Translations under genes and position numbers: made by a program
Part shown: positions 1 to 45,139 of the stretch, one piece after another
Layout of the letters: each line of letters opens with the position of its first letter
How positions within the stretch are numbered: the first letter of the stretch is position 1
The notes under the pieces: generated by a model
The model's input: the letters and a program-made list of their open reading frames with translations, nothing else
What the model was told of the DNA's origin: nothing
The model's database searches: none
Source of the DNA: a virus
Reading direction: 5' to 3' (one strand)
Length of the DNA: 45,139 bases
Virus record (IMG/VR): IMGVR_UViG_3300030329_003224
Span: 1 to 45,139 of that record

Positions 1-1383
1 TTTTGGAAAGACTTTGCAATGCTATTTAATTCTGACATGTTAAAACAAAGACGTAAAGGATTAAAAACTGATGTTAACCACGCTGAATTAACAGAGGCCG
101 TTGGTAGATCTAAAAACCCAGCTATGGCTGCTTTAAATTATTTATTACAAAAAGGTTTTTTACCTACACAATTAGCGGATAGTTTTGCTATTGCCTCTGG
201 TGGTGCTACTTTTATTAGAAATAGAATAAATACTTATTTAAAAGATGGTTTAAGCAAAAAAGAGGCTGAAACAAAAGCTTTTGAAGATTTTCAAGAAATA
301 GCAGAAGCAACACAGCAGTCATCTAGACCAGATTTTATATCACAACAGCAAGCATCTCCACTTGGTAGATTAATACTAGCTTTTGCTAATACACCTATGC
401 AGTACGCAAGGTTAACCAAAAGAGCTATACAAGATTTAGCCGCTGGAAGAGGTGATGCTAAAACCCATATATCTAAAATAATATATTATGGCGCTGTGCA
501 AAATCTTATATTTGGAGCACTCCAATCAGCATTGTTCGCTTTAGCGTTTGATGACGACGAAGATGATAAAGAAAAAGATGCAGATGCTGAAAAGAAAAAA
601 ATGAGAGTACTTAATGGTATGCTAGATAGTATATTAAGAGGTATAGGTGTTGGTGGTGCCGTAGTTTCTACTATAAAAAATATGTTGATTAAGCTTGGGG
701 AAGAAAACAAAAAAGATTGGAATAAAGATTATGACAATGTTGTGATTGAAGGATTACAGGTATCACCACCTATAGGTTCTAAAGTTAGAAAACTTATAAG
801 TGCTGGAGATACTTATGATTATAACGAAGAAGTTATTCCAAGAATGAAAACGTTTGATGTTGATAATCCAATTTGGGAGGTTATTGGTAATGTTGTTTCT
901 GCAGTTACAAACGTCCCATTAGATAGACTTGTTAAGAAAACTAAAAATATTAAAGATTCTTTAGATGATCAGAATGAAACTTGGCAAAGAATAGCTTTAA
1001 TGCTTGGTTGGAATAGATGGGATTTAAGAATGGATAAACCTGAAGAGGTTGAGAGAATCAAAGAAGAAATCAAAAAAGAAAAAGCAGAAGCTAGAAAAGA
1101 AAAATATAGAATTGAAAAAGAACAAAGAGAAAAAGAAAAAGAAAAACAAAAAATAGAAGAGGGTAAAAAGAAACAAGCAAAAGAAAAAGAAGAGGGTAAA
1201 GAATTAACTTGTCTTAAATGTAAAAATCCTGTTGTGGCTGGTAAAAAATATTGTACAGTACACGAAAAAGCAGAACAAAGAGCTGATGGAAAAAAATCTC
1301 AATGTAAAAAGATTAAAAGTAATGGCAAACGATGTGGTATGCAAACAAGTAGTAAAAGTGGATATTGTTACTATCATGATTAA
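1..1383 (+). CDS. Large virion-associated protein, C-terminal part (5' truncated)
   Basis: The frame is open from base 1, so the ATG at 19 is probably internal and this is the end of a longer protein. About 460 residues are visible. A helical part with a hydrophobic stretch (near residues 160-185) is followed by an acidic run, then a long Lys/Glu-rich coiled coil (about residues 345-400). The tail carries two Cys/His clusters, CLKCKNP...KKYCTVH and CKKIKSNGKRC...GYCYYH, which look like zinc-binding knuckles; the second resembles the DUF5763 pattern. The helical body resembles the ends of very large polyvalent proteins that phages inject or carry inside the virion. That role is inferred from similarity of style and from its place before structural genes. 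Confidence 0.7.
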   Translation, partial: FWKDFAMLFNSDMLKQRRKGLKTDVNHAELTEAVGRSKNPAMAALNYLLQKGFLPTQLADSFAIASGGATFIRNRINTYLKDGLSKKEAETKAFEDFQEIAEATQQSSRPDFISQQQASPLGRLILAFANTPMQYARLTKRAIQDLAAGRGDAKTHISKIIYYGAVQNLIFGALQSALFALAFDDDEDDKEKDADAEKKKMRVLNGMLDSILRGIGVGGAVVSTIKNMLIKLGEENKKDWNKDYDNVVIEGLQVSPPIGSKVRKLISAGDTYDYNEEVIPRMKTFDVDNPIWEVIGNVVSAVTNVPLDRLVKKTKNIKDSLDDQNETWQRIALMLGWNRWDLRMDKPEEVERIKEEIKKEKAEARKEKYRIEKEQREKEKEKQKIEEGKKKQAKEKEEGKELTCLKCKNPVVAGKKYCTVHEKAEQRADGKKSQCKKIKSNGKRCGMQTSSKSGYCYYHD

Positions 1384-2525: not shown

Positions 2526-2840
2526 ATGACATATACACCGTTTAAAATGAAAGGACCGAGTTTATATAGAAATTCACCAGCTAAACAAAAAAAAGATCAA
2601 GTAAAAATAGTTGGAGAACAAACCGGTGAAATCAAGAAAGATAAGAAAGGACAAAAATATGTATTGCAAGATTACGACACGGAGAGTGGTGTAATGAAAG
2701 GTGATACTATACAGTTGTCTGGTGATTTTCCTAAAGTAGATAATTATTTAATGGGAGGTGATTACCACGGTAAAGAAACAAAACAAAGCAAGAAAAGAAA
2801 AAAGGGACCCAAAACTTACAATATAAGAACAGAAAAATAA
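2526..2840 (+). CDS. Small basic protein with PFKMKG tag and SPAK motif
   Basis: 104 residues, Lys-rich. The N-terminus holds the PFKMKG tag (residues 5-10) followed by NSPAKQKK. The same tag and SPxK motif occur in at least six other genes here (around 27.3-30.1 kb and 34.1-36.0 kb). The middle has an ordinary mixed composition (GQKYVLQDYDTESG), and the tail is basic. No enzyme motif is visible. Its stop overlaps the next start by one base. A role as a DNA-binding or internal virion protein is inferred from the shared tag only. Confidence 0.7.
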   Translation: MTYTPFKMKGPSLYRNSPAKQKKDQVKIVGEQTGEIKKDKKGQKYVLQDYDTESGVMKGDTIQLSGDFPKVDNYLMGGDYHGKETKQSKKRKKGPKTYNIRTEK

Positions 2841-6857: not shown

Positions 6858-6886
6858 ATAATTAATTAATAACAAACAACAATAAT

Positions 6887-7312: not shown

Positions 7313-7340
7313 TAAATTATAAACTTAAAAAATAAAAAAA

Positions 7341-7766
7341 ATGCCAACAACAACAGCAACGATATCGCTAACGAACGATATATCATCTGTTCCGGTTAAT
7401 ATATCTGCTTCTTTTAATTTGTTAAAAGCTGGTAGCACGGAGGGGATGAATCAAATGACTTCGAAAAGAAAAATATACACTAGCACTGACCAGGTAGATA
7501 TGATACCTTTTGGTGATGCTGGTGGTGAAACACATAACTTTGTATATATATTCAACGCTTCTTCAACATCAACTGATTACATTACAGTAACACAAACTGA
7601 TTCACCAGGTGGATCAAGTACTGAGGTTATTGTAGAGCAAATAGGTAGATTGTATGCGGGTGATTGGATGTTTATTCCTTGGAACGCAGCAGACGCTACA
7701 CAAGATATAGCTATTAAACCTAGCACTGCTAATGAAATGCCTATTGAATATATACTAATAAGCTAA
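7341..7766 (+). CDS. Virion protein, paralogue 3 of a tandem set of three
   Basis: 141 residues, starting MPTTTATISLTNDISSVPVN. It carries YIFNASSTSTDYITVTQ, RLYAGDWMFIPWNAAD and MPIEYILIS, the same ordered landmarks as the two genes upstream. It has a longer loop between the YITVT strand and the LYAGDW motif. Its stop codon overlaps the next start by one base. Confidence 0.65.
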   Translation: MPTTTATISLTNDISSVPVNISASFNLLKAGSTEGMNQMTSKRKIYTSTDQVDMIPFGDAGGETHNFVYIFNASSTSTDYITVTQTDSPGGSSTEVIVEQIGRLYAGDWMFIPWNAADATQDIAIKPSTANEMPIEYILIS

Positions 7767-10882: not shown

Positions 10883-11137
10883 ATGAAAATGAGAAACGCA
10901 CCATTAAGAGCATTTGCGAAAGATTCGCCAATGAAAAAGAAAAAAGCTTTTGATTTTAGTAAAAAAGCTGACTATTCTAAAGAAAAAACTTCAAAAACAT
11001 TAGGGGCTAAAGTAGCAAAAGCTTTTATACCTGATTTAAGCACGCCTACGAGCGCTGCAATGGAATTTTTACCTGTCGGTAAAGCTAAAAAATTATATAA
11101 AGTTGCGAAAGCAGCCTGGAAAGGAAGAAAATCATAA
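10883..11137 (+). CDS. Small very basic protein with SPMK motif
   Basis: 84 residues, about one quarter Lys. The N-terminus reads RNAPLRAFAKDSPMKKKK, a looser version of the PFKMKG plus SPxK arrangement seen in other small genes here. The rest is helical and Lys/Ala-rich. It is the last rightward gene before the terminator. It is likely a nucleic-acid-binding or internal virion protein, by analogy with the tagged family. Confidence 0.6.
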   Translation: MKMRNAPLRAFAKDSPMKKKKAFDFSKKADYSKEKTSKTLGAKVAKAFIPDLSTPTSAAMEFLPVGKAKKLYKVAKAAWKGRKS

Positions 11138-12120: not shown

Positions 12121-13992
12121 TTATAGGCTTGTAATTTCACAGACTCCACCGGCACAAGCCAATTCACCTGATAGATCTGTTTCGTCAGTCTCTTCAACAA
12201 CACGAGATAAATCAATATCGTTTAAAGACTTAACTCTTTTTTCAAACTCTTTTTTAGTTATATCTTCAAAAGGAGCTTGAGTATACGTTCCACCATCATA
12301 TGGTAGAACTGATAAACCATTATAACAGTCTCTGTTTTTCCACATCCATTCACCAGCTTTTTTCCAGTCGCCATCTTTTAAACTTATTGTTGCAGATACA
12401 TTGTGGGTATTAGATCCTTTTCTATGTCCAGGTTTAACCCATTCTGTAGCAACTTTTTTAACTCTTTTAAGTAAGTCAAAAGCAGACTCAGTTCTTAATA
12501 TTGAACCTTTTGGAGCTGATTGTGGTATTTCAATAACAGCAGTGTCGTGTGGTCTAAAATATTCATCTTTCACTAATTCTGGATGATTTATTTTTAAATA
12601 ACTATATATAGCCTCGTTCTTTCCTACACGAAGTCTTCTAATATAATAATCGTTGTGCCAAGCGTGAATACCTGAAGATGTACCAAGTACTAACGAAGTT
12701 GTTCCAGCGGGTTTAACACATGTTGTTCTTGCCGCTTTGTTTATTCCTATTAGTTTTGCTACTCTTGTATTCTCTCGTTTTACTGTACTTGCAGCTGCCT
12801 TCATATCCAGCTGGAGCACAGCGGCACTCCCTATTCCTGTCATTGACACACCTATAAGCGCGTCTTTCTCTGTTGTTTCTTGCCATATTTCTCTTAGATA
12901 GTGGAATTCCGTATAACCCGCTTGAAGCGTGCCAATGAATGCAGCGGCTTTAACGCGAGCGTTAAGGTCTTCTTGGCTTGTGACGTCACTTACATTAACT
13001 TCACACAAGTTACAGAACTGATAGGGCCTTAAAGCTATCTCACAACAAGGATTGGTTCCCCAATCTTTATCATGATTAAAATATATTCCTGGCTCTCCAG
13101 CTCCGGATAATTCAATACGTTTCCACAAATCTAAGAAAAATTCCTTTGTTATTTTATGTCTCATTAAAACCGCTGAGTTATTAGCTCTACCTCTTTGTGG
13201 ATTCTTTTCCCACCAAGATCCAGATTTACATGATATCATTTCTTCATCATAAGCTGAAAATAAACTTATTAATGCTGCTCGTCTGATTCCGCCAGCGAGT
13301 ACAGCGTCAGCAATATGACAAATAATATCATGGACTTCAAGAGTAGATAACTGTGTTCCATCTTCTTTCGATTCTAATATTCCTTTTATTTTTACAATAC
13401 ATTCTTTTAATGGTTGTGGTCCTGGGGCTTTTCCCCCTGAGGTCACGAGACGTGCTCCCTTAGGCCTAATATCAGAATAATCAAACTTTATCTTAGATGA
13501 TCTCTTAGAGCCTAAATAAGACTTAATTAAAACCTTAATACTATCAGACCAACCCTCTATTGAATCCCCTATAACAAATCTTCTGGTTCTACCTTCAAAT
13601 GGTTTTGTTATGTGTGGAAGAGAAATGATATGATGCTTTTGAACACTATAACCAACGCCACAACCAGATAGTAAAAGAAACATACACTCACTAAAACTAT
13701 CAACATGATCGATAGGGAGGTAGCTGCAGTTGTACAGGCGGTTCGGACTGATTTCAATAGGTTTGCCACTAAACTGAAGCGAGCGCATACTTGGTAAAAC
13801 TTTTTTCTTGTAAACATATCTATAAACTTCTTCTATTTGATTATATAATTCTGGGTATCTTTTTTGGTGCATTTCTTTATTCCTTGTTACCAATTCCTCC
13901 CAGCTTTCTCTTTTATTTGTTTCTGGTATATATTTAGCATATTTCATATGCACTGTAATATCAGAAAGTATTTTATTATTTAATTTTGTCAT
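12121..13992 (-). CDS. nrdJ: Class II (B12-dependent) ribonucleotide reductase, monomeric type
   Basis: 623 residues; reduces ribonucleotides to deoxyribonucleotides using adenosylcobalamin. Landmarks match the Lactobacillus RTPR type: NCSY (Cys89, equal to Cys119), SGCGVGYSVQ (109-118), NPCCE with Cys316 and QFCNL with Cys327. The 11-residue gap equals that between Cys408 (thiyl radical) and Cys419 (reductant). The C-terminus has the CAGGVC pair that recycles the disulphide. It is shorter than the 739-residue reference, so some peripheral parts are reduced. The start overlaps the stop of the small gene upstream by one base. Confidence 0.92.
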   Translation of the reverse strand: MTKLNNKILSDITVHMKYAKYIPETNKRESWEELVTRNKEMHQKRYPELYNQIEEVYRYVYKKKVLPSMRSLQFSGKPIEISPNRLYNCSYLPIDHVDSFSECMFLLLSGCGVGYSVQKHHIISLPHITKPFEGRTRRFVIGDSIEGWSDSIKVLIKSYLGSKRSSKIKFDYSDIRPKGARLVTSGGKAPGPQPLKECIVKIKGILESKEDGTQLSTLEVHDIICHIADAVLAGGIRRAALISLFSAYDEEMISCKSGSWWEKNPQRGRANNSAVLMRHKITKEFFLDLWKRIELSGAGEPGIYFNHDKDWGTNPCCEIALRPYQFCNLCEVNVSDVTSQEDLNARVKAAAFIGTLQAGYTEFHYLREIWQETTEKDALIGVSMTGIGSAAVLQLDMKAAASTVKRENTRVAKLIGINKAARTTCVKPAGTTSLVLGTSSGIHAWHNDYYIRRLRVGKNEAIYSYLKINHPELVKDEYFRPHDTAVIEIPQSAPKGSILRTESAFDLLKRVKKVATEWVKPGHRKGSNTHNVSATISLKDGDWKKAGEWMWKNRDCYNGLSVLPYDGGTYTQAPFEDITKKEFEKRVKSLNDIDLSRVVEETDETDLSGELACAGGVCEITSL

Positions 13993-20140: not shown

Positions 20141-20896
20141 TTACAGATAATCAATCACTTGTGAGTGGTCTACATTCTCTATAAGTTTTTGTACTGCTTG
20201 CTTTTTTAATTGCGAAACTCTTACATAAGCAGCTGATCCTTCTATATCTAAATATTTAGCTATTTCATTCGCAGAATGCTTATCACAATCTAAACCGTAA
20301 CTCAGTCTTAACACGTGAAATTCTTTATCATTTAAATGTTGTTTTAATAAAGAGGTTAAATACATATTTAAAAACTCTTGATTATATGGTTCTGATTTAT
20401 CTTCAATTTGATAAAGAGTATCATCTTCATCTCTTACGGCATCAATACTTAAAAATATACTATTAAAAAACATTGCTACAGCTTTTTTATCTTTACCAAA
20501 GTTTTTACGTATGCTATTTGTTACGTGTTCTGGCAATCTCATTTGTCCTCTATTTATATCTATAGCTCTTCGTATTCCTCCTTTAATTCTTTTAGATAGA
20601 AATGATTTCATTGTTTTTTCTTTATCGTCAGAATCATTTATCATATCCCAATCGATGCGATCTGTTGCTTTTATTAAGTTTAAACTTCCTTCTTGTATTA
20701 AATCTGTTATAGCCATAACTCCTGATGCTTGTTGAGATGTTGCAAATTTTCTAGCTATATTTTCTACTAAAGGTAAAAACGTAGTTACTAATTCATCTCT
20801 AGTATATTCATGATAGTCTTTTTTCTTTAATCTTTTTAATGTGGCTTCAAGATCTTCTTTATATCTTATATAGTTTTGTATATTATAGTGTTTCAT
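20141..20896 (-). CDS. RNA polymerase sigma-70 family factor
   Basis: 251 residues. Region 2 is seen as FLPLVENIARKFA ... ITDLIQEGSLNLIKATDRID and FLSKRIKGGIRRAI; region 4 as LRLSYGLDCDKHSANEIAKYL with a helix-turn-helix ending in RVSQLKKQAVQKL. It should redirect host RNA polymerase to phage promoters. The five-copy 31-bp element at 24.2-26.8 kb is a candidate target, though this is only inferred. It is preceded by an HTH gene two bases away. Confidence 0.88.
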   Translation of the reverse strand: MKHYNIQNYIRYKEDLEATLKRLKKKDYHEYTRDELVTTFLPLVENIARKFATSQQASGVMAITDLIQEGSLNLIKATDRIDWDMINDSDDKEKTMKSFLSKRIKGGIRRAIDINRGQMRLPEHVTNSIRKNFGKDKKAVAMFFNSIFLSIDAVRDEDDTLYQIEDKSEPYNQEFLNMYLTSLLKQHLNDKEFHVLRLSYGLDCDKHSANEIAKYLDIEGSAAYVRVSQLKKQAVQKLIENVDHSQVIDYL

Positions 20897-27258: not shown

Positions 27259-28032
27259 ATGCCACAAGGAAAAGGAACATACGGATCACAGGTTGGGAGA
27301 CCACCTAAAAAGAACTCACCAATGGGATATTCCCCATTTAGAATGAAAGCAAAGGACTACGGTAACTCACCAATGAAGAAAAATTACGGAGAATTTGGAG
27401 TAGGATATCCAGAAGCACCGAAAAAACCAACGGCTGATGTTAAATCACCAGCTAAGTTTTTTGGAGCAATAGGAAGAATGGGTGGAGCAGCTGGTGGAGG
27501 TTTTTTAACTGGAATAATGGGACGTAATCCAAAAGTGAAGGCTATGATAGAGAAAATAAGAGCTAGAAAAGCAGAAAAAGCAGCAGAAGCAGCAGCACCA
27601 GAAGAAGATGCAACAGCAGAAGACGCAGCAGCAGAAGATGCGGCAGCAGCAGCTGAAGGGGCTGAAGCAGGGGCTGAAGAAACAGCAGGAGCTGTTCCTA
27701 AGCATGGTCCTGAATCTCACACTAGACCTAAACTTGGAAAATTAGGAAAATTCTTTGCAAAAGGTAGAGTTAGACCTGGAGGACCTGGAGGTATGATACG
27801 AGGTTTATTCTCTGATGTAAGGCTTAAAGAAAAAATACAAAAAACAGGAGTTTCACCATCTGGAATTCCAATATATGAATTTAATTATATAGGTAGTAAT
27901 AATAGATACAGTGGCGCGATGGCGCAGGATCTATTAGAAATTAACCCTAGTGCAGTAACAATGGACTCATCGGGTTATTATAAAGTGAATTATAACGACA
28001 TCGATGTAGACATGCATCAAATAAATAATTAA
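27259..28032 (+). CDS. Tagged basic protein with C-terminal S74-like chaperone domain
   Basis: 257 residues. The N-terminus has NSPMGYSPFRMKAKDYGNSP and later KSPAKFFG (the tag plus three SPxK-type motifs). A Gly-rich patch and an Ala/Glu-rich low-complexity part (about 98-145) follow. The C-terminus (from SDVRLKEKI at about 185 to the end, with IPIYEFNYIG and SGAMAQDLLEI) is a Peptidase_S74-type intramolecular chaperone domain, which normally trims tail fibres after trimerisation. Here it sits on a non-fibre, DNA-binding-style body, which is unusual. It is the first gene after the host-type promoter. Confidence 0.75.
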   Translation: MPQGKGTYGSQVGRPPKKNSPMGYSPFRMKAKDYGNSPMKKNYGEFGVGYPEAPKKPTADVKSPAKFFGAIGRMGGAAGGGFLTGIMGRNPKVKAMIEKIRARKAEKAAEAAAPEEDATAEDAAAEDAAAAAEGAEAGAEETAGAVPKHGPESHTRPKLGKLGKFFAKGRVRPGGPGGMIRGLFSDVRLKEKIQKTGVSPSGIPIYEFNYIGSNNRYSGAMAQDLLEINPSAVTMDSSGYYKVNYNDIDVDMHQINN

Positions 28033-28034
28033 TT

Positions 28035-28877
28035 ATGGGATTTAAAATGAAAGGTAGTCCTGCCAAATTAGGGACAATACAAGGAACATCTGGTCATAGA
28101 TCAGCGTTAAAAATGGCTGAAGAAGCACAAAACTCACCAGTTCCAATTATAGGAGCTGTTTCAAAAATAGCTAAAGGTGTAGGTAAAGTAGCTGGTAAAG
28201 TAAAAGGAGCTGTTGACAAAGTAAAAGGTGCATTTTCTGAAGGTAAAGCAGAAGGAATAGCAGGACCAGCAAAACCAGAGTCTCCAGCTAAACTTGATAC
28301 TAAATCAGGAAGAGCGCCAAGAAAGACAGAATGGCAGAAGAAAGAAGAAGCGAAGAAAAAGTTTCAAGCTATAGAAGGAGGAGGAAAATGGGAAGGTGAA
28401 GGCGGTGGTCTTAAAGTTGATAAGAAGAGACGTAAACCTTCTAAAGAAGCTAATATCAAAAAAACCCAAATGATGAAACGAGGCACAGGTCTTAAAAAAC
28501 AATCTTTAGAAGAACTTGCTAAACAACAAGCTAAAAGAAAATCAGAAAGAATGACTAAAGCTATAACAGGAGAAGGTAAATCTACTGGAAGAGGTGGTCT
28601 TAAAAAGCAATCTTTAGAAGAACTTGCCGCTCAAAAGGCTAAAAGAGAAGCAATGAGAAAAGCAAAAAGAAAATTTAAAGCTATAACGGGAGAAGGCAAG
28701 TACGAAGGTAAAGGAGGAGGTCTTAAAGTAGATAAAAAAGGAACTCCAAATAAATGGTTACTAACTGCTGCAAAAGCTGTTGGTAAAGGTTTAATGGGAA
28801 GATCTAAACAAAAAGATGCAAGAGACGCTGAGATTCATAAAGGTGTTTCAAGCGCAATGGGTAGACCAATTCAGTAA
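28035..28877 (+). CDS. Lys-rich protein with FKMKG tag and internal repeats
   Basis: 280 residues, strongly basic. It starts MGFKMKGSPAKLG; a second SPAK (ESPAKLD) follows near residue 83. Internal repeats: GLKKQSLEELA twice, and a KAITGEGK-type block three times (FQAIEGGGKWEG, KAITGEGKSTG, KAITGEGKYEG). No enzyme motif is present. It is likely an internal or DNA-associated virion protein. Confidence 0.7.
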   Translation: MGFKMKGSPAKLGTIQGTSGHRSALKMAEEAQNSPVPIIGAVSKIAKGVGKVAGKVKGAVDKVKGAFSEGKAEGIAGPAKPESPAKLDTKSGRAPRKTEWQKKEEAKKKFQAIEGGGKWEGEGGGLKVDKKRRKPSKEANIKKTQMMKRGTGLKKQSLEELAKQQAKRKSERMTKAITGEGKSTGRGGLKKQSLEELAAQKAKREAMRKAKRKFKAITGEGKYEGKGGGLKVDKKGTPNKWLLTAAKAVGKGLMGRSKQKDARDAEIHKGVSSAMGRPIQ

Positions 28878-28895
28878 TCATTAATATATATAGAT

Positions 28896-29855
28896 ATGGG
28901 ATTTAAAATGAAAGGGCCATCTATACATGATGGTACGGATGCTCACAGAAGAGCACAGCACGAGGCTTTTAAGAAAAGAGCTGCGGAAGCAAATAAAAAA
29001 CAACAAGCTAAAGATCGTGTAGGCGAAGGTTTTATGCGTCCACCTTATAAAGATACTGTTAAAGCTCAAAAAGACGGTACTCCTTATGCAAAAAGACAAG
29101 GTTATCATGGATATAAAAACTTTGATTCTAATATAGAGAAGCAAGAAGATGCTCAAGGTAAAGATACAAATATCAAAACACCTAAAGTAATGAAGGATGG
29201 TGCTAAAAATAGAATGCACTTCCACAAAAGTTCTCCAAATAAAATGCATGCTAAAGGGCATAAAAAAACCAAAGAAGATTATATTAGTGAAGGTTTTACC
29301 CCAGCTGATGCTGATAGAATGATGAAAGATGGTGCTACAACTGGTGAATATAATCCAAAGAAAAAGAAGAAGAAGAAAGAGGCTAAAAAATCTACAACAT
29401 CTGCACACGGTCAATTAGAAGATGCGCAAGCTGAATACGAAGTAGATAAAAAAATATTAGCTAAAAAGAAATCAAAACGAGGTGACGCTGGGCAAATGAA
29501 GCTACCTAAAAAAGCTAAAAAACCATCTAGACCTAAGCCGTTAAAACCTGAAAGACGAGAGCCTACTTGGGAAGGAACTGATGAGTTTAGAAAACCAGAA
29601 GATATTCCAGCTAGTGAATATGAAGAAAGAGGTATGAAAAAACCTAAGAAAAAATCTCCAAATAAACTTGATCTTAAAAGAATTAAAGCTGGAGTAAAAG
29701 GAGCGGTTAAAGGTGCGTTATCTACTAAAGGAGAAGCTTTTCCAGGAAAGAAGTGGGACAAAAGATATCCTGGAGTAGACATAATTCATGGCTATAAAGG
29801 CGCGGTTGCGATGCACGATAAAAAGAAAAAATCAAAGAAAATAGCAAAAAAATAA
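28896..29855 (+). CDS. Lys-rich protein with FKMKG tag and SPNK motifs
   Basis: 319 residues, strongly basic with long Lys runs (NPKKKKKKKEAKK). It starts MGFKMKGPSIHDGTDAHRR and has SSPNKMHAKGHKK (near 109) and KSPNKLDLK (near 252). It shares the start MGFKMKGPS with the gene at 34145. It is probably disordered in large part and DNA-binding, as judged from composition. Confidence 0.7.
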   Translation: MGFKMKGPSIHDGTDAHRRAQHEAFKKRAAEANKKQQAKDRVGEGFMRPPYKDTVKAQKDGTPYAKRQGYHGYKNFDSNIEKQEDAQGKDTNIKTPKVMKDGAKNRMHFHKSSPNKMHAKGHKKTKEDYISEGFTPADADRMMKDGATTGEYNPKKKKKKKEAKKSTTSAHGQLEDAQAEYEVDKKILAKKKSKRGDAGQMKLPKKAKKPSRPKPLKPERREPTWEGTDEFRKPEDIPASEYEERGMKKPKKKSPNKLDLKRIKAGVKGAVKGALSTKGEAFPGKKWDKRYPGVDIIHGYKGAVAMHDKKKKSKKIAKK

Positions 29856-29860
29856 ATATT

Positions 29861-30127
29861 ATGAGCGATTATACTCCGTTTAAAATGAAAGGATTCTCAG
29901 GATTTGGAAATGAGAAGCCTTCTCCAGCAAAAAAACTTAGAGACTTACCAGACATGCCGGATTGGTTTTATAAGTACCACCCAGGATTTGCAGCTGGTAG
30001 GTTAATTAAAAAAGGAATTAAAGCATCAATTGCTGGAAGAAAAAAGAGTGGTGGTAAAGTACATAAAGACCAAAAGTCTTTTATGGCGGATGCTAAGAAA
30101 AATACAAAATCTATTTTTAAAAAATAA
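29861..30127 (+). CDS. Small basic protein with PFKMKGFSGFGN tag
   Basis: 88 residues. The tag (residues 6-17, PFKMKGFSGFGN) is identical at protein level to that in the gene at 35570 although the codons differ, and it is followed by PSPAKKL. The rest is basic. A role with DNA or the particle interior is inferred. Confidence 0.7.
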   Translation: MSDYTPFKMKGFSGFGNEKPSPAKKLRDLPDMPDWFYKYHPGFAAGRLIKKGIKASIAGRKKSGGKVHKDQKSFMADAKKNTKSIFKK

Positions 30128-30180
30128 AAACATAGGGAAACACCCTAGAACCAAGTTATTAACCAAAAAAAACCAAAAAA

Positions 30181-30474
30181 ATGACTTATTTATACTACAA
30201 GACTAGTACTTATACTAGCAACCAAAAACCGAATGAAAAAACTATTAACCAGTGGACACATCTAGCTGACAAAAAGAACTGGAGAATCACACAATTACCG
30301 AACGGATTTTACCAAACGGAGTGTTCTGATCCAGAAAATCCGAAAAATTGGCACGATGTTACACGAAGAGAGACCATAGAAGGCGCTGAAGCAGCAATTG
30401 ACGGAAGCGTTGACCATTTCTTGAAGAAATTAGAGGCTACAAAAGGCCCAAAAGTTGTAAAAACATTCGAATAG
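30181..30474 (+). CDS. Hypothetical protein (97 aa)
   Basis: 97 residues, soluble, without the tag of its neighbours. It contains WTHLADKKNWRITQLPNGFY and a helical end. It has an A-rich leader (ccaaaaaaaaccaaaaaa). It is placed between the tagged cluster and groEL; function unknown. Confidence 0.65.
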   Translation: MTYLYYKTSTYTSNQKPNEKTINQWTHLADKKNWRITQLPNGFYQTECSDPENPKNWHDVTRRETIEGAEAAIDGSVDHFLKKLEATKGPKVVKTFE

Positions 30475-30503
30475 AAGTACAATTTAATCAAATTTAATTT
30501 AAT

Positions 30504-32072
30504 ATGGAATACAATCAACCTAGTTTGATCGTTAAAGACGTGAGCTTTGGCGATAACGCAAAAAATAAAGTAATTGTAGGTGTAGAAAAACTTGCAAAAG
30601 CGGTAAAATCCACCTTAGGAGCATCTGGTAAATGTGTAATTTACGAAGATGCAAGAGGCAACCCGGTTATAACAAAAGACGGCGTTACAGTAGCAGAATC
30701 TGTAGTCTTATTCGACCCGGTTGAAAATATGGGCGCTACTTTAATTAAAGAAGCAGCCCGAAACACAGTAAGAGAAGCGGGTGACGGTACTACAACAGCT
30801 ACTGTCCTCGCTGAATCTTTATTAAAAGAAGTTAATAGTTGTGAAAAAGACGCAACTATTAGAGAGATAAAAGATGGAATACAATCTGGTCTCGTTAAAA
30901 TAAATAATTACCTCAATGAAGTTTCTGTAAAGATCGAGGGCGATATGCTGGAATCTGTTAGTTCAATAAGTTGTAATAATGATGCGGAACTAGGAAAGAT
31001 TATAGCGGAAGCTTATACTAAAGTAGGTAAAGACGGTGTGGTATTAATGGAAGAGTCTCCAACTGAAGAAACATACGTTGAGGTTGTTGATGGCGTGCAG
31101 ATAGATTCAGGACTCACATCTCCACATTTCGTTACCGATAAGGACAAGCATATTTGTGAGCTTGATAACCCATTAGTATTAATTATTACTTCAGAAGTAC
31201 CAAATATAAGAAAAGTACAAGATATACTCGAGCATGTTATAAAAAATAACAGATCTTTATTGATTGTAGCGCCTATAGCTGAACAAGTTAAAGCTGCTCT
31301 TATTATGAACAAGGTAAAAGGTAATATTAAAGTTAATGTTGTTAACTTACCTGGTTTTGGCCCTACTAAACAAGATACATGTGAAGATTTAGCGTTTTTA
31401 GTTGGTGCAACTATTATGAACGAAAACTTAGGTGATGATTTAGATTTATTAGATGTAGGATGTTTAGGTGAAGTACATACCGCGATAACTGATGAAAACA
31501 ATACAGTATTAACTATTGATCCACCAGAAGAAAAATTAAAAGAAAGAATTAACAATATACAAAAGTTAATTGATAAAGAGGATAAAAATCCATTTATAAA
31601 GAAAAAACATCAACAAAGATTAGCAATGTTGTCAGGGAGTATAGGTATGGTGAAAGTAGGTGCTAATTCTAAAGTTGAGATGAAAGAAAAGAAAGACAGG
31701 GTAGAGGATGCCATCTATGCTACCAAAGCCGCGTTAAAAGAAGGGATCGTCCCTGGTGGCGGGGTCGCCCTTTTGAACGCCGCTCAAAAGATTGAACCTA
31801 CAAATGTAGGTGAAGAAGTTCTTTTAAAATCTATAAAAGCTCCTTTTCATACTATATTAGCAAACGCTGGTTTAGAACAGGTAGGATTAAGACCTGAAAA
31901 AGGATTAGGTGTAGATGTAGTAACTGGAGAATCAGTTGATATGATTGATTCAGGAATTATAGATCCAGTACTTGTAACTAAATCAGCACTTAAAAATGCT
32001 GCCAGTGTAGTATCAACAATTATATCAGCTGATTGTGTAATTTCAAATATGAGAATGAATGAAAGCAGTTAA
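30504..32072 (+). CDS. groEL: GroEL-type chaperonin
   Basis: 522 residues, close to the usual 545. Landmarks: KSTLGASGK near residue 33, EAGDGTTTATVLAE (near 90, ATP hydrolysis), VKVGANSKVEMKEKKDR (near 380), EGIVPGGGVALL (near 413). The Gly/Met tail of bacterial GroEL is missing. It folds proteins in a ring with GroES; a phage copy probably helps fold capsid proteins or replaces the host system late in infection. The groES gene overlaps its end by 14 bases. Confidence 0.93.
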   Translation: MEYNQPSLIVKDVSFGDNAKNKVIVGVEKLAKAVKSTLGASGKCVIYEDARGNPVITKDGVTVAESVVLFDPVENMGATLIKEAARNTVREAGDGTTTATVLAESLLKEVNSCEKDATIREIKDGIQSGLVKINNYLNEVSVKIEGDMLESVSSISCNNDAELGKIIAEAYTKVGKDGVVLMEESPTEETYVEVVDGVQIDSGLTSPHFVTDKDKHICELDNPLVLIITSEVPNIRKVQDILEHVIKNNRSLLIVAPIAEQVKAALIMNKVKGNIKVNVVNLPGFGPTKQDTCEDLAFLVGATIMNENLGDDLDLLDVGCLGEVHTAITDENNTVLTIDPPEEKLKERINNIQKLIDKEDKNPFIKKKHQQRLAMLSGSIGMVKVGANSKVEMKEKKDRVEDAIYATKAALKEGIVPGGGVALLNAAQKIEPTNVGEEVLLKSIKAPFHTILANAGLEQVGLRPEKGLGVDVVTGESVDMIDSGIIDPVLVTKSALKNAASVVSTIISADCVISNMRMNESS

Positions 32073-32319
32073 TCACTATATAATCGTAAAAAACATAAAA
32101 ACAGGACCTAAAAAGGTTGGTGGTCTAATTGTAACAGATGATACAGATGTTGACAATAGATATATAAAAGCCGATGTTATTTCAATAGGTAACCTAGTTG
32201 AAGGAATAAAAGAAAAAGACATTGTATATTATGATAAACACGCTGGACATGATATACAACACAAAAGTATATTATACCGCGTTATTCGCTCAGGCGACGT
32301 GGTATTAATTGATACCTAA
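32059..32319 (+). CDS. groES: GroES-type co-chaperonin
   Basis: 86 residues. It has the mobile-loop motif VGGLIV (residues 20-25, like GGIVL in GroES), then DVISIGN, EKDIVYYDKHAG and VIRSGDVVLI, the order of a GroES barrel. It caps the GroEL ring. It is a little shorter than the bacterial protein (about 97), as in T4 gp31-like minimal versions. It overlaps groEL. Confidence 0.88.
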   Translation: MKAVNHYIIVKNIKTGPKKVGGLIVTDDTDVDNRYIKADVISIGNLVEGIKEKDIVYYDKHAGHDIQHKSILYRVIRSGDVVLIDT

Positions 32320-32384
32320 ACCAAGACCATCAAACCTTAAACTTAAAAACAAAACAAATTATTAATTAAACAAAAACAAAAATT

Positions 32385-33317
32385 ATGGAAAATTTCTTGT
32401 ATTTTGCAGAAGCAGTAGTAGAAACTGGTGACGATGGAACATCAGAAGCACTATGCGTGCCTGCAAGTAGTTTTATTGGGGCAGATCCTATGTCAGGTGC
32501 AACTGAATTTAAATTTAGAGATGCATCAGGTGAAGGTGCTCATCGAGTAAAATTTACTCATACAGCTGGAAAGCAAAAAGATGTAATGAGAGCTTTTATG
32601 GCTTGTGTAAACGCAAATCCTCAAGAAGGACAATTTATTAGAGTATTTGATGGTGAAACAGGTACAGCTACAACAAAAGACGAATTTATTAACCCAGTTT
32701 TTAATGGTCTTGGAGTTAGTGCTGTTACAATTAAAGAAGTTTCAGGAGAAACTGGAGCTATCACTGGTGTTTCAGGTGGAACAACTTTATCTACTAGCTA
32801 TGGTGCAGGTATGGTGTCTACTGGAACTGGTGCACCTGGAGCACCACAATATTCTAGAACTATGGTTGCAGACACTATAGTAACGACGGTTAAAATTGAT
32901 TTAACAGGACTTGGAGGTGTTAGTGATGCTGATGATGTTATTGGTATTGCTTCTGGAACTCCAGACGCATACTTTCTTAAACACGTGGTTAATGAAATGG
33001 GTGTTCTTTATGAAGTAGAAATGACATGTCTTGAATTACCTGCTTCGGATTCTAATAATCTTACTGATATTAACTTAGCTTGTACTTCGGCTTCAACTGG
33101 AGGCTATAACGACGATGGTAATGGTTATACTCAATTATTAGACGCTGGTACTTGGACAGCTGGAGAAACACAAATATTAACTACCGCTGCTGTTCAAACT
33201 ATAAGTGGTGGTGATTACTTCTATTTGTTAGAAGGCGCAACTCATACAGGTGCTAATACTTGGACGGCTGGAGCGTTTATGCTAACGTTTAAAGGTGCTA
33301 AATTACCAGTAGCATAA
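32385..33317 (+). CDS. Virion protein with MxxFLxFA N-terminal module
   Basis: 310 residues. The N-terminal module (MENFLYFAEAVV ... HRVKFTHTAGKQKDVMRAFM) matches in layout those at 8232 and 33343. The C-terminal 200 residues are Gly/Thr/Ala-rich and beta-rich, as in capsid or tail surface proteins. A 65-base A-rich leader precedes it. The role is inferred. Confidence 0.65.
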   Translation: MENFLYFAEAVVETGDDGTSEALCVPASSFIGADPMSGATEFKFRDASGEGAHRVKFTHTAGKQKDVMRAFMACVNANPQEGQFIRVFDGETGTATTKDEFINPVFNGLGVSAVTIKEVSGETGAITGVSGGTTLSTSYGAGMVSTGTGAPGAPQYSRTMVADTIVTTVKIDLTGLGGVSDADDVIGIASGTPDAYFLKHVVNEMGVLYEVEMTCLELPASDSNNLTDINLACTSASTGGYNDDGNGYTQLLDAGTWTAGETQILTTAAVQTISGGDYFYLLEGATHTGANTWTAGAFMLTFKGAKLPVA

Positions 33318-33342
33318 TTACTAACTTTTAAAAAATAAAAAA

Positions 33343-33699
33343 ATGAAAAAATTCTTATATTTTGCAGATGGTAATGGAGCTAACGCCACGGGCGAGTCAG
33401 TTGCTGTTTTAGCAGAAAACATAAAAAGTATCGTTCCTGTAACTGTTACTACAACAGCTATGTACTATGCGGATCTTAGTGGTTCAATAGATAAAATAGT
33501 ATTTACACATGACGATAAAACAACAACTTCTGGACACAGAGTAAGAGAAATAGCTAAGGCTATAGCTGAATGCGCTAACGCTACTGCTCATATAAATGGT
33601 ATGACAGACGTTGTTGATTTAGATAACTCGATATACTACGGTAATCTTAGTTTTATTACTGCTTTAGCTATATCATTAGGTACATCTTTAGACTTTTAA
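33343..33699 (+). CDS. Virion protein, stand-alone MxxFLxFA module
   Basis: 118 residues starting MKKFLYFADGNGA. IVFTHDDKTTTSGHRVREIA parallels VKFTHTAGKQKDVMRAF of the gene before it, so this is the same module with almost no extra domain. It is likely to have arisen by duplication within the phage. Confidence 0.65.
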   Translation: MKKFLYFADGNGANATGESVAVLAENIKSIVPVTVTTTAMYYADLSGSIDKIVFTHDDKTTTSGHRVREIAKAIAECANATAHINGMTDVVDLDNSIYYGNLSFITALAISLGTSLDF

Positions 33700-33715
33700 T
33701 AGTTGAGATTATCCG

Positions 33716-33728
33716 CGCAGAATCTGCG
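33716..33728. promoter_or_regulatory. Palindrome CGCAGA-A-TCTGCG before a regulator-like gene
   Basis: Perfect 6-bp arms around one base, four bases upstream of the ATG at 33733. It is GC-rich against its surroundings. It would suit an operator for the winged-helix-like protein coded directly downstream, or a small hairpin at its ribosome-binding region. Confidence 0.4.
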
Positions 33729-33732
33729 TGAA

Positions 33733-34143
33733 ATGAATATCCTTAAGTATTACAGGCTCACTAGAAAGTGGGTCTGTAAAACTTACGGGTTAAAAGATGC
33801 AGATTTAGAATTATTAATTTATTTAGATTGTAAAGAAAGATTTACACGAAAAGATTTTATGGATGGAGTTTATACTTATTCATGGGACAAAAACAGATGG
33901 GAGAGATTAAGAAGAGATGGTTGGATAGAAACTTGGAGACACCGCAATAGAACCACTATCACATACTCTATATTTAAAACTTCGTTTAAATGCTCTCAAA
34001 TGATAACTAGAATTTATAGAATACTTTTAGGTGAAGAAGATTTACCAACATCAGAAAGAAGTATATTTTACAATAACAAATCATATACAGATAAAGTTTA
34101 TAATAAAGCTATAGATGATATGATTAAAGACAAAGACCGATAA
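33733..34143 (+). CDS. Putative winged-helix (MarR-like) DNA-binding protein
   Basis: 136 residues from ATG 33733; a TTG at 33703 would add ten residues but reads through the palindrome. MNILKYYRLTRKWVCKTYGL is followed by DADLELLIYLDCKERFTRKDF, then a basic wing-like part (WERLRRDGWIETWRHRNRTT). The plan is that of MarR-type regulators, found in marine phages near structural genes. It may control late genes. Confidence 0.65.
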   Translation: MNILKYYRLTRKWVCKTYGLKDADLELLIYLDCKERFTRKDFMDGVYTYSWDKNRWERLRRDGWIETWRHRNRTTITYSIFKTSFKCSQMITRIYRILLGEEDLPTSERSIFYNNKSYTDKVYNKAIDDMIKDKDR

Positions 34144-34144
34144 T

Positions 34145-35185
34145 ATGGGATTCAAAATGAAAGGCCCTTCAACTCACAAGGGAACATTAAGACATAAACT
34201 AGAAACAGAGCAACATCACGAACAAATAAGACTTAATAGAAGTATGGATCAAACTAGTCTTCCAGATGGTAGACCTGGAGTATCTCCATTTCAATATAAA
34301 GGATTTGATATTGATTTAAGCGGAAAATCTAAAGATAGTGGGTCAAGTTTAGTAGATTATGCTAGAAAAAAACGAGAAGAAAAATCTAAACTTTCTTTAA
34401 CTCCAAAAAAAGAAAAAAAGAAAGAACCAACTAGAGAAGAAAAAAGAGCTAAAAGAAAAGCAGATAGAAAAGCAAAGCAAGAAGCTAGAGATTTAGAAAG
34501 AGCAGAGAAAAGAGGAAAGAAAAGCGCTTATAAAGAAAGTTTAAAATCTGCAAAAGATATAGCTAAAAAAGAAAATAAAAGAATAAAAGAAGAAAGAAAA
34601 GCTAAAGAGAAACAAGATAAAGCGGATAAACTTGAAAAGAAAAGAGCGGACAAAGTAACTAAAGCTTTAATGAAAAGAGACAAGCCAGGAACTGTTGTTT
34701 CTAGAACTGCTAAAAAAATTGGTTCAAAATTAAATCCTTGGTCTAAAGAAAATAAAGAAAAAAGAGCTAAAAGAAAAGCAGCTGAAGCAGCTGATCCAGA
34801 AGGAACATTAGCAAAGAAAAAAGCTAGAAGTACTAAAATAGCTGATTCTATAGAATACTTGTTTATGGATGGCGCAAGGCCAGATGATAGAGCTGCAGCT
34901 CGTAAAGCTACAGAAATGGCAAATCGAAAAGCTGAACTTAAGTTGAAAAAGTATGAAGAGAAACAAAACAAACATACTGACGATGCTAAGGATACAGAAA
35001 AAGAAGAACAGAAAATATACGATCACAAAAAAGCAAAAAAAATATGGGATCCAAAAAACCCAGATACTAACATGAAGGATTTTGCTATAGGATCAGAAGG
35101 AAGAAAAGCTGAATACGATAGAAGAAAGTGGAAATACGATGAAACTATAAAAGGTTATAATAGAGACGGTACTAAAAAGAGATAA
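34145..35185 (+). CDS. Long Lys/Arg-rich protein with FKMKG tag
   Basis: 346 residues; Lys, Arg, Ala and Glu dominate. It starts MGFKMKGPSTHKGT and has GVSPFQYKGF (near 41), a second tag-like string. The rest is a long charged helix with few breaks. It is the largest member of the tagged family and is probably bound to DNA or to the capsid interior. Confidence 0.7.
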   Translation: MGFKMKGPSTHKGTLRHKLETEQHHEQIRLNRSMDQTSLPDGRPGVSPFQYKGFDIDLSGKSKDSGSSLVDYARKKREEKSKLSLTPKKEKKKEPTREEKRAKRKADRKAKQEARDLERAEKRGKKSAYKESLKSAKDIAKKENKRIKEERKAKEKQDKADKLEKKRADKVTKALMKRDKPGTVVSRTAKKIGSKLNPWSKENKEKRAKRKAAEAADPEGTLAKKKARSTKIADSIEYLFMDGARPDDRAAARKATEMANRKAELKLKKYEEKQNKHTDDAKDTEKEEQKIYDHKKAKKIWDPKNPDTNMKDFAIGSEGRKAEYDRRKWKYDETIKGYNRDGTKKR

Positions 35186-35186
35186 T

Positions 35187-35558
35187 ATGGCATTTAAATT
35201 AGGAAGCGAACATAGAAAGTTAAACTATAACGATGCTAAGAATCGTTTTAAAAAAGATCAAGCATCTGTACCGGGTACACCTGTTATAAGAAAGAAATTA
35301 AATGGTGTTAAAGCTGAAGCTAATATAGATGGTAGTATATTTTTAGATGAATCAGTTGTTCCTGGAAGTGACGAAGAAAGAGCTATACTCATGCATGAAA
35401 TGAAACATATAGTAGATATGAAGACTGGAAAACTATCTTATGATGACGATAGTATTACTTGGATGGGAGAAAGACATGAAAGAAAAGACGGTAAAATAAA
35501 TTATAATGGTAAGTGGCACCAAGAAGGTGATTACACTTTACCTTGGGAAAAACATTAA
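35187..35558 (+). CDS. Small putative zinc metallopeptidase (HEMKH)
   Basis: 123 residues starting MAFKLGSEHRKL. ILMHEMKHIVDMKTGKLSYDD (about 68-88) contains HExxH with a following acidic stretch, as in small zincins. The end (WHQEGDYTLPWEKH) is aromatic-rich. Its position among the tagged Lys-rich genes suggests it could process them or scaffold proteins; this is an inference, and activity is not shown. Confidence 0.65.
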   Translation: MAFKLGSEHRKLNYNDAKNRFKKDQASVPGTPVIRKKLNGVKAEANIDGSIFLDESVVPGSDEERAILMHEMKHIVDMKTGKLSYDDDSITWMGERHERKDGKINYNGKWHQEGDYTLPWEKH

Positions 35559-35569
35559 AAACAAAAACT

Positions 35570-35977
35570 ATGCCAGAATTTGACAAAAACAAAGGGTTTA
35601 AAATAGAACCAGGCTACGCGCCGTTCAAAATGAAAGGATTTAGCGGGTTTGGAAACGCTTCTCCAGCAAAATCACATAAAAAAGGACATAAAGATCAACA
35701 AGGTCCAATTCCTGAAAAAAACCAACCTTTACGTAAAAGCGAAATGAAAGGTACTTATGTATATCCAGGTAAAGGAACAAAAGATCCATTTGTTACAAGT
35801 GAAAGAATTACTGATTACGAAGATAGAGCAGAATTCGCTAGATATGATGCAGAATCAGCTGAAGGGAAGAAAAAGAAAGAACATGAAAAAACAGCTAAGC
35901 ATTTAGAAAGAGAGGCTCAGATAATAAGAGATAGAAAAAGAAATCAGAACAAGAAGCCACCATTTAAACAAAAATAA
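35570..35977 (+). CDS. Basic protein with PFKMKGFSGFGN tag and SPAK
   Basis: 135 residues from ATG 35570, which has an A-rich leader; an ATG at 35543 lies inside the preceding gene. After a short start (MPEFDKNKGFKIEPGYA) comes PFKMKGFSGFGN and then ASPAKSHKKGHKD. The remainder is charged and helical. The 12-residue tag is shared exactly with the gene at 29861. Confidence 0.7.
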   Translation: MPEFDKNKGFKIEPGYAPFKMKGFSGFGNASPAKSHKKGHKDQQGPIPEKNQPLRKSEMKGTYVYPGKGTKDPFVTSERITDYEDRAEFARYDAESAEGKKKKEHEKTAKHLEREAQIIRDRKRNQNKKPPFKQK

Positions 35978-43158: not shown

Positions 43159-44373
43159 ATGGCAAAAAAGAAAAAAGAAGAACCAATCGTAGATAACGAA
43201 ATTGGTAAAATAAAAGTAAAAGAAAAAAAAGAAAAACAACCAGATGGTAACAAAACAAAAGGAAATGTTACTGAGGTTAAAGAAAAAATGACAATGAAAC
43301 CTGAGGTTGTAGGTGAAACTGTAACCAAGGTTAATTTAAACAAACCACCAAAAACAGAAGAAGAAGTAAAACCAGAAACAACAGACACTACTAAAGAGGT
43401 TATTACTGAAAAACCTGTTGAAGAAGTTGTTCCTGAACAAGTTTCAGAAGAAGTTATTGAAAAACCTGTAGTAGAGGAAATAACAAATGAAGAAAAGATA
43501 GAAAAAGTAGCTGATAAATTAGAACAAGCTATTGATGTTGCGGAACAAACAGGAACACCATTACCAGAAGGTATACAAAAGGTTGTAGATTTCATAAATG
43601 AAACTGGTGGAGATCTTAATGATTATGTAAAACTTAATCAAGATTATTCAGAAATGGATAATCAAACGGTTTTAGAAGAATATTACAGACAGACTAAACC
43701 TCATTTGTCAGCAGAAGAAAGAAGTTTTTTAATGGACGATCAATTCGCTTATGATGAAGAGGAGAATACTGAAAAAGAAATTAAAAGAAAAAAATTAGCG
43801 TTAAAAGAGCAAGTTGCCAGCGCTAGAGCTCACTTGGACGAGCAAAAGTCCAAATACTACGAAGAAATTAAAGGTGGATCAAAACTCACTGATGAGCAAA
43901 GAGAAGCAGTTAATTTCTACAACGAAGCACAGCAGAAAGCAAAATTTGAAGAGGATGTTACTAATAAATTTTTAAACAAAACAAATAGATTTTTTGGAGA
44001 TCAATTCAAAGGTTTTGAATATAATATCGGAGATAAAAAATTTAGAGTTAATATTAGTGATGCAGAAAAAGTAAAAAAATCTCAAAGTGACATAAATAAT
44101 TTTATCTCAAAGTTTGTAGATAAAGATTATAACATGACAGATCCAGATGGATATCACAAGGGATTATATACAGCTATGAATCCTGATCAAATTGCTAATC
44201 ATTTTTACGAGCAAGGTAAGGCCGATGCGTTAAAACAAAGTATTGAAGAGGCTAAGAACGTAAATATGAATCCTAGACAAACTATGGATCCAGCTAACAA
44301 TAGTGGGGTTAAAGTTAGAGTTATAGGTGAATCTGCTAATGACTTCAAATTTAAAATTAAGAATAAAAATTAA
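43159..44373 (+). CDS. Putative scaffolding protein
   Basis: 404 residues between portal and capsid genes. The first 120 residues are a low-complexity Glu/Val/Lys/Pro tract (for example TEKPVEEVVPEQVSEEVIEK). A helical body follows (about 180-260), and the C-terminus is more compact. An acidic, helical, coiled-coil protein in this place is the usual form of a capsid scaffold. No protease domain is visible. Confidence 0.65.
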   Translation: MAKKKKEEPIVDNEIGKIKVKEKKEKQPDGNKTKGNVTEVKEKMTMKPEVVGETVTKVNLNKPPKTEEEVKPETTDTTKEVITEKPVEEVVPEQVSEEVIEKPVVEEITNEEKIEKVADKLEQAIDVAEQTGTPLPEGIQKVVDFINETGGDLNDYVKLNQDYSEMDNQTVLEEYYRQTKPHLSAEERSFLMDDQFAYDEEENTEKEIKRKKLALKEQVASARAHLDEQKSKYYEEIKGGSKLTDEQREAVNFYNEAQQKAKFEEDVTNKFLNKTNRFFGDQFKGFEYNIGDKKFRVNISDAEKVKKSQSDINNFISKFVDKDYNMTDPDGYHKGLYTAMNPDQIANHFYEQGKADALKQSIEEAKNVNMNPRQTMDPANNSGVKVRVIGESANDFKFKIKNKN

Positions 44374-44393: not shown

Positions 44394-45139
44394 ATGGCAA
44401 TTACTGCAGGAGATAATTTGAATAGTGTACCTGCTCCAAGGCAACAAACACTATCTACAAATTACTTAGACCTTAACAGCACGTCTGGATGGGGTCAACA
44501 ATATGTTCCAGATCTAATGGAGAAAGAAGCTGAAGTTTTCGGACCGAGAACTATTTCAGGTTTCTTATCGCAAGTTGGAGCTGAAGAAGCGATGGCTGCT
44601 GACCAAGTTGTTTGGTCTGAGCAAGGTCGTTTACACTTGTCTTATTTAGGACACATTGAGAATGCTACAGGTGGTACTGCTTCTGGTGGTCAAATCGAAA
44701 TTGAAACAGATATCGATGGAAACGACATAGGTGCAAATCACGGTATTAGAGTTAACGATACGGTTATCGTTGCAAACTCTGAAGGTGTTGTAAGATGTTT
44801 AGTAGAAGCTGTTGATACAGGTTCTATGATCGACGTTTTACCTTACGACTTCGCATCATTAAATACTGCGAATATTACAACTACTGGTGGAACTAGAGAT
44901 ACAACTATATTAGTTTATGGTTCTGAATACGGTAAAGGGGATAGCTATAACAACGCTGCCAACGATGCCGCTACTGATTCAAGAGGTGGTAACGAGCCTT
45001 CTTTCCAAACTTTTACTAACAAACCGATTATCATGAAAGATTACTACGAAGTATCAGGTTCTGATACAGCTAGAGTTGGTTGGGTTGAAGTTACTGGAGA
45101 AATGGGTCAATCAGGTTACTTATGGTACTTAAAAGCTGA
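44394..45139 (+). CDS. Major capsid protein, N-terminal part (3' truncated)
   Basis: 248 codons are present before the window ends; the frame stays open. It starts MAITAGDNLNSVPAPRQQTL, then SGWGQQYVPDLMEKEAEVFG and WSEQGRLHLSYLGHIENATG. The order terminase-portal-scaffold-this gene and the style of the N-terminal arm support major capsid protein. Its DNA is less A/T-rich and uses more C-ending codons than its neighbours, as expected for a very highly expressed gene. Confidence 0.8.
   Translation, partial: MAITAGDNLNSVPAPRQQTLSTNYLDLNSTSGWGQQYVPDLMEKEAEVFGPRTISGFLSQVGAEEAMAADQVVWSEQGRLHLSYLGHIENATGGTASGGQIEIETDIDGNDIGANHGIRVNDTVIVANSEGVVRCLVEAVDTGSMIDVLPYDFASLNTANITTTGGTRDTTILVYGSEYGKGDSYNNAANDAATDSRGGNEPSFQTFTNKPIIMKDYYEVSGSDTARVGWVEVTGEMGQSGYLWYLKA

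Follow-up and report, generated by a model that had tools for sequence, protein, structure and literature searches.

A Short N-Terminal FKMKG Tag on Unrelated Late Proteins of Marine crAss-like Phages as a Candidate Head-Targeting Signal

Tagged Genes in the Window

The stretch of 45,139 nucleotides analysed here (the window; positions 1 to 45,139 of the IMG/VR virus record IMGVR_UViG_3300030329_003224) is, judging by its genes, derived from an uncultured marine crAss-like phage. It encodes a short peptide, FKMKG (TTYAARATGAARGG), hereafter the tag, close to the start of several proteins. Six matches to this motif occur in the window (2541, 28041, 28902, 29879, 34151, and 35624), each of them in frame on the plus strand and near the N-terminus encoded by one of the open reading frames (ORFs) at 2526, 28035, 28896, 29861, 34145, and 35570, while 100 dinucleotide shuffles of the window yielded none. 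The N-terminal tag on unrelated proteins, noticed in a first-pass annotation of the sequence, is thereby confirmed. The annotation saw an SPxK motif behind the tag in most cases; five of the six genes do contain one, and the gene at 34145 carries SPFQYKG after the tag instead.

All tagged genes of the window lie on the plus strand. The first (2526..2840) encodes a protein of 104 residues, MTYTPFKMKGPSLYRNSPAK, downstream of a giant internal protein and an OMP-like protein, and its syntenic counterpart in a related genome (G014) is also tagged (MAFKMKKFGGFGNSPIK). Three others are found in close succession: a lysine-rich protein of 280 residues (28035..28877; MGFKMKGSPAKLGTIQGTSGH), with relatives that share its N-terminus in contigs L016 and G006; a further lysine-rich protein, 319 residues long and bearing two SPNK motifs (28896..29855; MGFKMKGPSIHDGT); and a protein of 88 residues (29861..30127; MSDYTPFKMKGFSGFGNEKPSPAK). 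The product of 34145..35185 (346 residues; MGFKMKGPSTHKGT) has the same N-terminus as proteins in G006 and L295. The last tagged gene (35570..35977; GYAPFKMKGFSGFGNASPAK) lies within a longer ORF that starts at TTG 35543, and its tag, although present, is located at about residue 19 when counted from ATG 35570. A PHROG search of the proteins from 28035, 28896, 29861, 34145, 35543, and 2526 returned no match.

Looser members had also been proposed, of which those at 27259 and 35187 hold. The protein of 257 residues encoded at 27259..28032 contains SPFRMKA, SPMK, and SPAK together with a C-terminal S74 intramolecular-chaperone domain, but the tag-like element sits at about residue 25 and not at the very start. 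The Pfam S74 match falls below the cut-off (E=1e-3), and this part of the protein is closest to phrog_6121, a virion structural family (E=2.5e-17), and to phrog_4287, a DNA ejection protein family (E=3e-9). The candidate at 10883..11137 (84 residues; RNAPLRAFAKDSPMKKKK) is a loose candidate that has SPMK only and lacks FK[ML]K.

The gene at 35187..35558, by contrast, is a genuine member. It encodes a small zinc metallopeptidase, here called peptM, with the motifs HEMKH and PWE and the tag-like start MAFKLGSE; among 117 unique homologs, 100 begin with MxFK[LM] and 22 carry the exact FKMKG. The active-site residues H70, E71, and H74 (HExxH) are invariant and PWE is nearly so, in keeping with the HExxH and further conserved acidic residue of zincin metallopeptidases. 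In the AlphaFold2 (AF2) model the core is predicted with a confidence score (pLDDT) of 85-92, while most of residues 1-27 score low and form no secondary structure. Fold matches are weak (minigluzincin/IrrE/SprT-like, Z up to 5).

Position, Sequence Conservation, and Spread of the Tag

In the related viral contigs sampled, which were partly picked by tag-based scans and are therefore tag-enriched, FKMKG was found 205 times within the first 15 residues, four times within the last 15, and 18 times internally, while shuffled N-termini predict 0.1 N-terminal occurrences. Contigs selected by their terminase gave seven N-terminal matches and one internal match (0.04 expected), and contigs selected by gp99 gave none. 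In all, 217 unique proteins carry the tag ahead of dozens of bodies that are not related to one another; the 218 tag-bearing genes fall into 119 clusters of bodies. In view of these unrelated clusters and the unstructured tag end of the peptM model, the reading of the tag as part of one folded domain was rejected.

A comparison of 65 tags on distinct bodies shows hardly any change in the five residues, with synonymous codons that vary roughly with genome usage; the phenylalanine is located two to six residues after the initiator methionine in 59 of them. Some copies are C-terminal, with proteins ending in APFKMKGFLGYKK and PFKMKGFSGFNKY; they include a metallopeptidase (L044) and an ORF of 47 residues present in five contigs. 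The mapping of tagged genes onto whole contigs, which the first-pass annotation had called for, places all 67 genes with an FKMKG- or SPxK-type tag on the structural strand, whereas untagged genes are distributed 463 to 172 between the plus and minus strands (p=5e-9). The tag is thus restricted to late-strand genes with many unrelated bodies.

A scan of IMG/VR for PFKMKGF returned 62 stretches, mostly with at least one tagged ORF each and with a few chance matches, and a scan for M[AG]FKMKG returned at least 120 matches. Among the M[AG]FKMKG matches listed, 106 of the 116 analysed loci contain at least one gene of a crAss-like reference family, and all analysed loci except L310 match reference genomes. 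L310 has no crAss-like genes, and its match, located in an ORF of 50 residues, was taken as chance. Tag usage was surveyed in contigs taken from 13 genomes, of which G004 lacks FKMKG and G002 has a C-terminal copy only; both carry SPxK. The tag is absent from the annotated cultured or related records of phi38:1, phi18:3, elemoE, Panino, and MW202828, where the only other matches to the search pattern, two in number, lie in short phi18:3 ORFs and are not N-terminal tags. No match to PFKMKGFxGF was found in 84,980 prokaryotic genomes, none to a 23-residue consensus tag by tblastn against 50,697 phage records, and no paper mentioning FKMKG in the open-access literature searched. The tag is genuine and strongly non-random, and within the material sampled it is limited to a marine crAss-like lineage.

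Other short motifs also recur on differing late accessory proteins of these phages, namely CK...KFKVWPSAYASGWGVRC, CWKGYExxG...NCVP, and AQRKAVHASKA (for example at L096:1287-1925, G002:49865, G001:56584, L036:6872-7126, and G004:52777), and some of them share proteins with the tag.

Tagged Families and the Virion Interior

Homology and synteny suggest a link between the tagged families and the inside of the particle. In phage phi40:1, gp80 and gp99-101 are virion proteins by tandem mass spectrometry (MS/MS), according to the GenBank notes. Orthologs of gp80 start with PFKLK- or SPIRLK-type tags (e.g., MKGTPFKLKQKL and MKSSPIRLKQKL), and gp99 proteins can have SPxK-type N-termini (MKKYQGESPLKLAP, MSNSPAKLFP, MSKSPFKILP); one of these gp99 proteins weakly matches P22 gp7. 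Such N-termini occur in nine of 38 clusters of gp99-type ejection proteins, compared with three of 203 clusters of shell and tail families (p=4e-6); for the internal group gp99-101 as a whole, the figure is 14 of 130 (p=4e-4). Some gp101 giants start with MRKPSPLKHKE. The remaining tagged proteins include LysM proteins, Gly-zipper proteins, and one weak match to the internal virion protein family phrog_6056. Two further proteins of phi38:1, gp69 and gp77, whose phi40:1 orthologs were detected in virions by MS/MS, have no homologs in the tagged contigs. A gp99-type protein of another genome (G014:30915-32588) combines an SPLKHYEG N-terminus with a C-terminal S74 chaperone domain, which ties the S74 domain of the 27259 protein to ejection proteins.

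A Basic Tail on the Putative Scaffold gp92

Between the portal and major capsid protein (MCP) genes, the window encodes an acidic gp92-like protein (43159..44373, plus strand) that ends in the tail NDFKFKIKNKN. Its position and charge indicate that gp92 is probably the scaffold: the body has a median net charge of -36 and the tail of +4, and the combination of an acidic helical body, a basic tail at the C-terminus, and a gene beside that of the MCP recalls the P22-type scaffold. The ortholog in phi40:1 was detected in virions by MS/MS. Among 70 full-length homologs, a phi-K-phi-K pattern lies within the last 20 residues of 68, and F[KR]x[KR] within the last 15 residues of 56; in the rest of the protein, roughly 1% of windows fit. 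The phages phi38:1, elemo, Panino, and MW202828 have tails related to the DFKFKIKNK of the window; no tail of this type was found in phi18:3 or crAss001. The AF2 model consists of a low-confidence N-terminus, a helical core, and a low-confidence tail. A PHROG search of gp92 gave no match, nor did Foldseek at E<=0.001.

A Candidate Head-Targeting Signal

The first-pass annotation had proposed that the tag acts as a sorting or packaging signal, and this is the reading best supported by the data: the bodies are unrelated, the residues are kept while the codons vary, the tag can stand at either terminus and is found on late genes only, and tag-type starts occur on gp99 and on orthologs of phi40:1 virion proteins. 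We assign a probability of about 0.6 to the tag being a cargo-targeting signal for internal virion proteins. FKMKG, often followed by SPxK, would then be a short, portable head-targeting signal, N-terminal and rarely C-terminal, on late-expressed accessory proteins, which would be packed as internal cargo during procapsid assembly. Encapsidation, coat binding, and ejection are inferred; the cargo would probably leave the particle along with the DNA. For the recruitment itself, the likeliest step would be that the tag mimics the FKFKIK C-terminal tail of gp92 and occupies the same inner-coat site. This scaffold mimicry is a plausible but tentative proposal, suggested by a short resemblance. Equally speculative is a wider reading, in which the tail that binds the scaffold to the coat has evolved into a transferable address (F-K-phi-K, often with SPxK) and every new late gene that gains the tag would add its product to the capsid cargo. 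The lineage would then possess an open-ended cargo-loading system of its own for delivering proteins to the bacterial host.

The nearest functional parallel is, by analogy, the capsid-targeting sequence (CTS) of phage T4, an N-terminal peptide that directs almost any protein joined to it into the prohead (PMC7697877). Both are short N-terminal peptides common to several different phage proteins. However, the sequences differ, the tag described here also occurs at C-termini, and many more bodies are tagged across the lineage. Furthermore, the CTS is removed by the S77 protease, and encapsidation is here a prediction. No T4-type (S77) or HK97-type (S78) prohead protease was found in 14 possibly incomplete records, with a T4 control positive for S77; since the T4-type protease was not found, the tag was not classed as a member of the CTS group. 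In P22, the basic C-terminus of the scaffold binds the coat, and cargo fused to the C-terminal part of the scaffold is encapsidated in virus-like particles (PMC9962691). gp92 is likewise mostly helical with a basic C-terminal region, but neither a family nor a fold match was detected for it, and the similar peptide would here be natural and mostly N-terminal.

The capsid and tail of crAss001 store several MDa of cargo proteins (PMC10172136). The crAss001 cargo gp45-gp50 and phi40:1 gp99-gp101 occupy the same place in the genome, after a muzzle-like protein, and are virion proteins by mass spectrometry; in addition, gp97-like proteins match crAss001 gp44. No significant sequence match between gp99-101 and the crAss001 cargo was obtained, so that they were rejected as sequence homologs, and the FKMKG tag is absent from the cultured relatives. 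A more distant comparison is offered by the extracellular contractile injection systems (eCIS/PVC), where disordered N-terminal leaders bring a variety of payloads into a particle resembling a phage (PMC11495950). Those leaders are 50-70 residues long and are used with an AAA ATPase and a contractile tube, unlike the motif of 5-15 residues on proteins of a podovirus-like phage.

Several points weigh against head targeting and its proposed origin in gp92. The assignment of gp92 as scaffold follows from gene position and charge without a fold match, the resemblance of its tail to the tag is a four-residue pattern, and no co-variation between tail and tag could be demonstrated, as the informative contigs are too few. 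Of the 80 contigs selected by terminase, just five have strict FKMKG; the locus lies outside many of these 80. Only nine of 38 gp99 clusters and a few of gp100 and gp101 are tagged, by SPxK and not by FKMKG, which indicates that cargo can be packed without a tag. The connection between FKMKG and SPxK relies on their co-occurrence in the same N-termini, and SPxK is also found at the N-termini of two of eight MCP clusters.

Alternative Explanations

The alternative that survives best, though unlikely, assigns the tag to peptM: this co-encoded protease would use it as a recognition or pro-peptide element when trimming or activating the tagged proteins. Such processing is compatible with head targeting. 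Of the 217 tagged genes, 73 have peptM no more than four genes away; peptM itself begins with MxFK[LM] in most homologs and keeps F3 and K4 of the tag nearly invariant alongside the invariant HExxH. Moreover, a search with a peptM hidden Markov model found nothing in the untagged relatives covered, i.e., phi38:1, phi40:1 (37-72.5 kb), phi18:3, elemoE, Panino, MW202828, and a stretch of crAss001. Polyvalent proteins set a precedent, as injected proteins that contain zincin domains, and work on them predicts that injected proteins are processed by zincins (PMC5512222). However, a self-tagged protease is explained equally well as cargo, G004 keeps peptM without any FKMKG, and the co-occurrence is confounded by common ancestry.

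A somewhat less probable view is that the tagged proteins bind or condense DNA, that FKMKG and SPxK form a nucleic-acid-binding motif, and that entry into the head occurs through binding to the genome. The bodies are indeed lysine-rich on average, with a median net charge per residue of +0.10 compared with -0.02 for untagged late genes. Nonetheless, 13% of them are acidic, the tag occurs on metallopeptidase, S74, LysM, and Gly-zipper proteins, and a DNA-binding motif would not need a terminal placement. DNA condensation as a common role, suggested by the first-pass annotation, is consequently not sustained. Its comparison of SPxK with the minor-groove motif of histone H1 is not borne out by the window: the SPKK motif consists of S/T-P followed by two basic residues, and the window has SPAK, SPMK, and SPNK but neither SPKK nor SPRK.

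It is quite improbable that the tag routes proteins within the infected cell, to a phage chaperonin, the membrane, or the nucleoid, and never into the particle. Of the 217 tagged genes, 56 have a GroEL gene at most four genes away, but untagged cultured relatives have GroEL genes too, and both the late-strand restriction and the kinship with proteins of the virion and of DNA ejection speak for the particle. A translation element acting at the nucleotide level, or the remnant of a recently duplicated start cassette, is very improbable: the tag usually lies close to the initiator methionine and TTT and AAA are slightly preferred over genome usage, but synonymous codons and offset vary, the bodies are unrelated, and C-terminal copies exist.

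If the tag does direct proteins to the inside of the capsid, then which proteins a large group of uncultured marine phages carries within the virion could be read directly from sequence. The tag and the gp92 tail would be expected to compete for the coat, and the tag, like the T4 signal, to load foreign proteins into particles (e.g., as FKMKGFSGFGNSPVK).

Identity and Other Features of the Window

The terminase, portal, and MCP of the window are of crAss type and follow the conserved gene order, and its structural module is syntenic with those of cultured crAss-like phages. The terminase is 65% identical to that of MW202828 and 46% to those of Flavobacterium elemo phages. In the PHROG search of the window proteins, the portal matches phrog_6547 and the MCP (44394..45137, plus strand) matches phrog_13704 (E=7e-26); the latter also has tblastn matches to crAss-like phages and similarity to the phi38:1 MCP. 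Since the record stops within this capsid gene and its opening ORF (19..1383, plus strand) probably encodes the C-terminal portion of a gp101-like giant internal protein whose start lies outside the window, the window is a fragment of a genome. The giant protein ends in a double zinc-knuckle, CxxxKSNGKRCxMxTxxKSGxCYYHD (1204-1383), with weak matches to zf-TRM13/DUF5763, and the same motif terminates the gp101 giants of G001, G003, G006, G007, G011, and G012.

Between 3451 and 6051, the window encodes a phage protein of 866 residues with many GCTDSTMFNYDPxANTDDGSC repeats and a C-terminal sorting domain of the type IX secretion system (T9SS; Por_Secre_tail, E=4.5e-8). The domain indicates a Bacteroidota host and suggests a late protein that would be secreted via the host's own type IX system. 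Three neighbouring small proteins of the late region (6450-7766; 135-141 residues) are apparent tandem paralogs. On the minus strand, a B12-dependent (class II) ribonucleotide reductase (12121-13992) lies beside nucleotide-metabolism genes, and a sigma-70-like factor with regions 2 and 4 (20141-20896) is encoded in the replication half of the genome.

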